DNA of 64,000 bases from an uncultured Bacteroidota bacterium (lineage in GTDB: Bacteria > Bacteroidota > Bacteroidia > Flavobacteriales > BACL11), in assembly GCA_902587125.1 (NCBI GenBank), contig CACIJW010000006.1:26731-90730 (forward strand). Reading direction: 5' to 3'. Below, piece by piece: positions 48,366 to 50,183 of this stretch (position 1 is its first letter; every line of letters starts with the position of its first letter). The notes under the pieces were generated by a model. It worked only from the letters and a program-made list of their open reading frames with translations, was not told the origin of the DNA and made no database searches. Both the position numbers and the translations under genes were made by a program.

Positions 48366-48703
48366 TGCCCCCTTATAAAGAAAGAGAAATAAAAAAACTG
48401 TTCTATACCATTGGTGAAGTTTCAAAAATATTAAACGTAAATGTATCGCTTGTAAGATTTTGGGATAATGAATTTGACATAATAAAACCAAAAAAAAATA
48501 AAAAGGGAAATCGACTATTTTCAGAAAACGATTTAAAAAATCTTAAAATTATACATCATTTATTGAAAAATAACGGATTTACTATAAAGGGAGCAAAAAA
48601 GGCACTTAAATCAAAAAAAAATGATTTTCAAAAAAATATTTTTTTAAAAGAAAGATTATTAGAGTTTAAAAAATTTTTAGTTTCATTAAGGGAGTCTTTA
48701 TGA
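48365..48703 (+). CDS. MerR family transcriptional regulator
   Basis: FYTIGEVSKILNVNVSLVRFWDNEFDIIKPKKNKKGNRLFSENDLKNLKIIHHLLKNNGFTIKGAKKAL. Confidence 0.94.
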   Translation: MPPYKEREIKKLFYTIGEVSKILNVNVSLVRFWDNEFDIIKPKKNKKGNRLFSENDLKNLKIIHHLLKNNGFTIKGAKKALKSKKNDFQKNIFLKERLLEFKKFLVSLRESL

Positions 48704-49478
48704 AGCTTAAAATATATATTTCCAGAGCTTATCTTCTCATTGTTCACATACTAAAAATTGACCTTTATATAGATTCAAAAACTTTTGAGATCAAGAAAAA
48801 ATTGTTGAAAGAAATTGCTATTGAAAAAAAAAAAAAATCTTATATTTTTCTAAATCATTAAAACAATCTAGTCAAGTAATTGAAACTGTAGACTTGGGAA
48901 AAGGTTCAACAGTCACACATCTAAAAAAAAGAAAAGTTTGTGACATTGCTAAAAACTCTTCTGTAAACAAAAAAATAGGGAAAATTATACACAACCTGTC
49001 AAAATTTAATAATGCTAAAAATATTTTAGAGATTGGGACTTCTTTAGGTATAAGTACTGTTTACTTAAGCACTGCAAATAGTTATTCAAAAGTAACTACA
49101 TTAGAAGGATGTGAAAACACATCGAATATTGCATTAAATAATTTCACTAAATTCAGTCTTGACAATATCGATTTGATAAAGGGTAATTTTAGTTTTACTT
49201 TGGATGAGGTACTTGAAAAAACAGAAAGTTTCGATCTGGTTTTTTTTGATGGTAATCACAGTAAAATAGATACTTTAAATTATTTTAATAAATGCTTAAA
49301 AAAGATAAATTCCAAAAGTATATTTGTTTTTGATGATATAAACTGGTCAGTTGAGATGAAATCAGCTTGGAATCAAATTATAAAAAATGATGTGGTAACA
49401 TTATCTTTTACATTTTTGAGAGTAGGAGTTCTTTTTTTTAAAAAAGATTTGCAAAATAAGAATTATAATTTTTTATAA
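48700..49478 (+). pseudogene. Class I SAM-dependent methyltransferase with internal frameshift at A14 tract (pseudogene, slippage-expressed gene, or sequencing error)
   Basis: Frame starting ATG 48700 (MKLKIYISRAYLLIVHILKIDL...IAIEKKKK) is open to poly-A 48824-48837; the -1 frame continues ILYFSKSLKQSSQVIETVDLGKGSTVTHLKKRKVCDIAKNSSVNKKIGKIIHNLSKFNNAKNILEIGTSLGISTVYL... The ORF track lists only 48894-49478. Confidence 0.75.
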
Positions 49479-49496: not shown

Positions 49497-50183
49497 ATGT
49501 CAAGTCTTATCAAAATAGATAACTTATCAAAGCATTACTTCTTGTCAAGAAATACAGTTAAGGCTATAGATAATATTTCACTGAAAATTAACAAAAAAGA
49601 ATATGTTGCTTTAATGGGGACATCTGGCTCTGGAAAATCAACTCTTATGAACATAATTGGATGTCTTGACACACCATCAAAAGGTTCTTATTATTTAAAC
49701 AATAAGAATGTTGGGGAATTAAGTGATAACAAGCTTGCTGAAATAAGAAATTTAGAGGTTGGGTTTGTTTTCCAGACTTTTAATCTTCTTCCAAGAATGA
49801 ATGCGTTAGATAATGTTGCTCTTCCTCTCATATACGCTGGATATACTAAAGATGATAGAATAAAATTAGCGAAACAAGCTTTAAAAGAAGTAGGTTTATC
49901 TGATCGAGTCTATCATAAACCAAATGAGCTTTCTGGAGGTCAGAGACAAAGAGTAGCTATTGCTCGAGCATTAGTTAATAGCCCCTCAATAATTCTTGCA
50001 GATGAACCTACAGGAAACTTAGATAGCAAAAACTCTAGCGATATAATGAAAATTTTTAAAAGAATACATCAAAAAGGAAATACTATTATACTAGTGACCC
50101 ATGAAACAGAGATAGCAAAAAATGCGAATAGAATTATAAAACTAAAAGATGGTCAAATTTTAACAGATGAAATAAACCAATGA
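49497..50183 (+). CDS. ABC transporter ATP-binding protein (LolD/MacB-type)
   Basis: Walker [20 protein letters not shown]-loop [27 protein letters not shown]; signature [32 protein letters not shown]. Confidence 0.95.

Follow-up and report, generated by a model that had tools for sequence, protein, structure and literature searches.

Is a gene whose reading frame breaks at a run of fourteen A's a working gene, a ruin or an accident of assembly? The question is raised by a methyltransferase gene in the window analysed here, a stretch of 64 kb from a host genome of 1.54 Mb that is available as a 36-contig draft. Taken as a whole the gene comprises 259 codons (48700-49478), and its ATG overlaps the stop codon of a merR gene (ATGA). 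The original prediction placed that ATG at 48700, the run at 48824-48837, a TGA at 48822 and the body of the enzyme in the -1 frame, all of which is right (Table 1).

Table 1. Features of the methyltransferase locus, in window coordinates
Feature	Position	Strand	Remark
MerR-type regulator, 112 aa	48365..48703	+	Pfam MerR_1, E 1e-21
53-codon ORF, 5' part of the methyltransferase, then out of frame	48700..48861	+	ATG 48700 to TAA 48859-48861
A14 run, slippery site	48824..48837	+	sister genome at this place: A-T-A10-T-A-A, 15 letters
Body of the class I SAM O-methyltransferase, 213 codons	48837..49478	+	-1 frame relative to ATG 48700
TTG, sole canonical start codon early in the body frame	48894..48896	+	TTA in sister
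ABC transporter ATP-binding protein, intact downstream neighbour	49497..50183	+	95% identical in sister

A methyltransferase gene in two frames

The zero frame meets its TAA 21 nt past the run. The frame of the body is closed upstream by TGA (48822-48824) and stays open from the run as far as TAA 49476-49478; the peptides on the two sides of the run are LLKEIAIEK and ILYFSK, SLKQSSQVIETVDLGK. Two Pfam profiles match the body, Methyltransf_24 (PF13578; E 8e-15, 56 bits against a cut-off of 26.3) and Methyltransf_3 (PF01596; E 1e-14, 54 bits against a cut-off of 22). By these matches the catalytic domain belongs to the class I SAM O-methyltransferases of PF01596/PF13578, the class of the COMT, SafC and TrmR folds, with which it shares the Pfam match, the conserved D and DD, and the SAM motif residues. 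As a structure model we used that of a relative of 259 aa (L047), which stands in for the window protein, being 44% identical to it by tblastn. Its AlphaFold model (mean pLDDT 88) matches PaMTH1, COMT, SafC and TrmR in the PDB at E 1e-10; as predicted for this relative, the fold is of the Rossmann type found in the class and resembles that of COMT and CCoAOMT.

The nearest genome that has the gene, hereafter the sister (G003, MAG SP47, Flavobacteriales, record PBAP01000020.1; about 95% nucleotide identity), carries it as an intact single ORF of 259 aa that starts at the same ATG. This bears out the view that one methyltransferase gene has been broken by one base at the run. The original prediction had proposed just such a comparison with relatives, and separate genes for the two halves are ruled out by the sister's single ORF. 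The methyltransferase was not found in the incomplete assemblies of three congeners: in G001 the contig stops inside merR, and G002 and G004 are incomplete assemblies without the locus and its neighbours. No relatives were found in the viral contigs that we searched. Across the family the gene order is M23 peptidase, MerR, methyltransferase, sometimes an ABC ATPase, CobO-type adenosyltransferase, a small DUF protein and SecA. Another genus of the family has a small zinc-finger gene (L009:942-1277, DksA/TraR-like by eye) between merR and the methyltransferase gene; it is missing from the window's genus, where these two genes overlap.

Automatic gene calling starts the protein at TTG 48894, which yields 194 aa. 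As had been noted originally, this is the sole start listed in that frame. It aligns with the conserved F/L of a D-F/L-G-x-G-S motif. Lying within a conserved motif and replaced by TTA in the sister, it is ruled out as the true start, so that the 194-aa ORF is best seen as a product of the gene caller; expression from inside the gene is unlikely because this start is not conserved.

Long runs of A in the genome, the genus and the family

The A14 run is the longest homopolymer of the window, followed by A10 and T10, and it ties for the longest of the whole genome with one other A14, at C3:67191. The latter (L036, G000:C3:67191) stands directly before the probable TTG start of a UvrD/PcrA-like helicase gene (MNDYLNHLNPEQKQAV). 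Where the window reads G-A14-TC the sister reads G-A-T-A10-T-A-A-TC: the window is one base shorter and lacks the two T's that break up the sister's run. Losing the first T and changing one T to A would suffice to create the pure run. Over nearly the whole length of the window, which could be aligned, thirteen 1-base indels separate the two genomes. Ten lie outside genes, two at gene edges (8652, just ahead of a start, and 44704, just behind a stop), and the only one inside a gene is that of A14. Because a single in-gene indel was found in 64 kb at 95% identity, the assembly is not generally indel-rich, and an explanation of that kind is ruled out.

Eight runs of at least 12 bases occur in the window's genome. 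When we examined these together with those of four congeners, nearly all turned out to be intergenic or to lie ahead of a start codon. Among those that lie within genes, the frame is kept at two A12 runs (L039, and rpiB in G002) and broken at two others, the A14 of the window's methyltransferase and an A15 in the sister's rnpA. We further surveyed runs of at least 14 A's in 52 genomes of the family, with at least 48 sites (L128-L174 and others). Among the family sites listed, two of the three runs well inside genes break the frame, and an A16 (L137), also well inside a gene, keeps it. Directly before a start codon stand 23 of the 48 listed runs. Start regions in Bacteroidota are rich in A (PMC6847099), and these runs are extreme instances of this. 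Orthologous long runs, non-coding ones included, are one or two bases apart between species. In one genome infC, which codes for IF3, apparently begins with AUC right after an A15 (L143, G016:C1:27355; IAQKRQFRGR...), with no ATG nearby.

The sister's rnpA, the gene of the RNase P protein, deserves particular attention. A pure A15 (L103:1564-1578; G003:C2:51063-51077) breaks its frame, so that the final portion of the RNase P domain falls into a different one. In the window's genome, in G001 and in G004 the same gene is intact, a frame of 151 codons in which A9-A10 is flanked by C's. Compared at the level of sequence, the sister's rnpA looks like the mirror image of the window's methyltransferase and would be a second case in the genus. 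RnpA is essential in bacteria generally; therefore, such runs are either miscounted in assemblies, or cells live with them by way of slippage.

A miscount would mean that the cell has A15 (or A12) and an intact gene, the assembly being one base short. We give this a substantial chance, though clearly not an even one. Both frame-broken genomes are metagenome assemblies, that of the window a draft in 36 contigs, and both breaks fall on runs, A14 and A15, whose length is easily miscounted; indeed, when short reads are PCR-amplified, many of their false indels arise at long A runs (PMC4240813). The sole in-gene indel of the 64 kb falls on the longest run, the sister's break also lies on its longest in-gene run, in a gene whose loss should kill, and the methyltransferase body is under selection (see below). 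Yet none of the window's other runs of 9-10 differs in a way that breaks a frame, and a miscount would require that two assemblies, made independently, each went wrong at just such a run. In the methyltransferase and in rnpA alike, the run has also become pure by losing the two bases that interrupted it, which is a real change of sequence.

The original prediction had also allowed for phase variation, the length of the run switching the gene on and off within the population as an adaptive contingency locus. This idea fared badly, and we consider it very unlikely because such runs do not form a repertoire in this genome and the sister's run, being interrupted, is not a switch that has been kept. 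An A14 is long enough to mutate frequently, and the variation by one or two bases of orthologous non-coding runs among species agrees with this. By contrast, the several in-gene homopolymers that go with phase-variable loci were not found in the window's genome, where the other runs of at least 12 are intergenic, precede starts or, in L039, keep the frame, so that no other in-gene run breaks it. G/C runs form no repertoire either, with just four G8/C8 sites genome-wide, and the gene's product is an O-methyltransferase of cytoplasmic type, not a surface structure.

Selection ahead of the run and behind it

Compared with the sister and read in its own frame, the body has a dN/dS of 0.21 (205 codons), a pairwise value that averages over the time before the frame break; for codons 60-213 the value is 0.19, and for neighbouring genes 0.05-0.16. 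No further lesion was found in 254 codons of the methyltransferase gene. The body is thus under purifying selection, and the gene is therefore not an old pseudogene. In the 41 codons ahead of the run we counted six nonsynonymous differences and one synonymous, small numbers that come from one genome pair. This ratio differs from that of the neighbours (Fisher p = 0.003), and its difference from that of the body is not significant (p = 0.09).

The N-terminus had been said to fit the layout of the family. In length it does so, but its sequence tells otherwise. The N-terminal part in the window's genus departs from the subfamily to which the gene belongs in Bacteroidota, which has two helices there and the motif HxxHSPF: this motif has been lost in the window and in the sister, and relatives from Fluviicola and Pricia lack it as well. 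A profile of the family N-terminus, run against all three frames of the 5' part, gave 0.5-1.4 bits, when shuffled sequences reached up to 8.1. Since no frame exceeds the shuffles, we rule out that the family N-terminus survives out of frame. These comparisons suggest that the gene is one functional unit, that its N-terminus evolves fast and that the frame break is recent on the scale of the divergence between window and sister.

A recent break might nevertheless be a loss of function, the A14 being real, slippage too rare to matter and the gene a fresh pseudogene. This would suit the six-to-one ratio of the N-terminal 41 codons, the weaker constraint on the whole gene than on its neighbours, and its absence from the three incomplete congener assemblies, although their contigs lack the locus as well. 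We find it improbable: 254 codons have no other lesion, the dN/dS of the body is about 0.2, and the order M23-MerR-(..)-MT-(ABC)-CobO-DUF-SecA is maintained across the family.

AUC starts are known mainly from infC. One may still imagine that the body is translated alone from the AUC right after A14, the run acting as an A-rich leader typical of the phylum and the upstream ORF as a coupled leader peptide. Family runs do often stand directly before a start codon, the infC gene of G016 offers an example of AUC after a long run, the body appears, from the model, to retain a well-predicted fold core, and no constraint is visible in the evolution of the 41 codons upstream. We nonetheless regard this reading as hardly credible, for AUC would be used outside its usual gene, and the sister has no A run followed by AUC of such form, its gene being read straight through from ATG.

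Slippage as a possible source of the full-length enzyme

What we favour, tentatively and with confidence that stops a little short of even, is that the locus is a functional single gene, and that some full-length enzyme is still made by slippage of RNA polymerase on A14. The run would then be real in the cell, and slippage would supply the protein. In the window's lineage an interrupted run would have turned into a pure A14 with the loss of one base. The genomic frame would break after codon 45 or so, and translation would end in a 53-aa peptide; RNA polymerase slipping on the run would add one A to some transcripts (or drop two), which puts ATG 48700 in frame with the body. The identical protein would result if the ribosome slipped by -1 on AAA-AAA. 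A programmed -1 ribosomal frameshift was considered and rejected: the heptamer A AAA AAA is present, but the sister does not share the site, and the RNA downstream shows no stimulatory structure (z = 0.11), which makes such an event unlikely.

On sequence, the locus has what characterizes rescue by poly(A) slippage, namely a long run at the break, an intact orthologue and purifying selection downstream. Further points in favour of this reading are the single in-gene indel of the 64 kb, the unconserved TTG and the apparent second case in the sister's rnpA. The phenomenon is already known from AT-rich endosymbionts. To our knowledge, measurements of slippage come mainly from enterobacteria and Buchnera, and none from Bacteroidota. 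In E. coli and Buchnera, insertions during transcription rise exponentially with the length of A/T runs (PMC5574713), though the E. coli enzyme proved little prone to slip on short runs of A in a reporter study (PMC6260861). In Blochmannia vafer eight genes have such frameshifts; dnaX, one of them, is intact where its run contains two T's (PMC3017870). The window resembles these Buchnera and Blochmannia cases in being AT-rich, in its one-base indel within a long A run of an otherwise intact gene, in having a relative that is intact with a T-interrupted run, and in the selection still acting on the body. It differs in the length of the run, 14 against their 9-12, and in its setting, since the sister is the MAG of a Flavobacteriales genome of about 1.5 Mb and not an insect endosymbiont.

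Also close to our case is tssM of Citrobacter, where transcriptional slippage of about 20-25% at an A11 restores the frame, the stop standing 28 nt on (PMC4256274). The zero-frame stop of our gene, 21 nt past the run, is at a similar distance, which counts in favour of slippage rescue. As in the methyltransferase, the zero-frame stop in tssM1 of C. rodentium (A11, PMC4256274) comes within about ten codons of the run, and one extra A leads to the full-length protein. There, by contrast, slippage was shown by mass spectrometry and both forms of the protein are needed, whereas the break in the window lies near the N-terminus and is absent in the sister.

Finally, whichever explanation holds, the protein given by automatic gene calling is the wrong one. 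If the runs have been miscounted, false pseudogenes and truncated annotations have a specific origin in the long A runs of metagenome assemblies. It is also conceivable, although we think it doubtful, that a Bacteroidota lineage outside the insect endosymbionts regularly lives with genes put out of frame by long A runs, a methyltransferase and even the essential rnpA among them, by virtue of an efficient slippage of its RNA polymerase, so that rescue of this kind would not be confined to endosymbionts. If both the A14 of the window and the A15 of the sister's rnpA are real, genes that look broken in AT-rich drafts of this group may well be functional, and rescue by slippage would extend beyond endosymbionts and enterobacteria.
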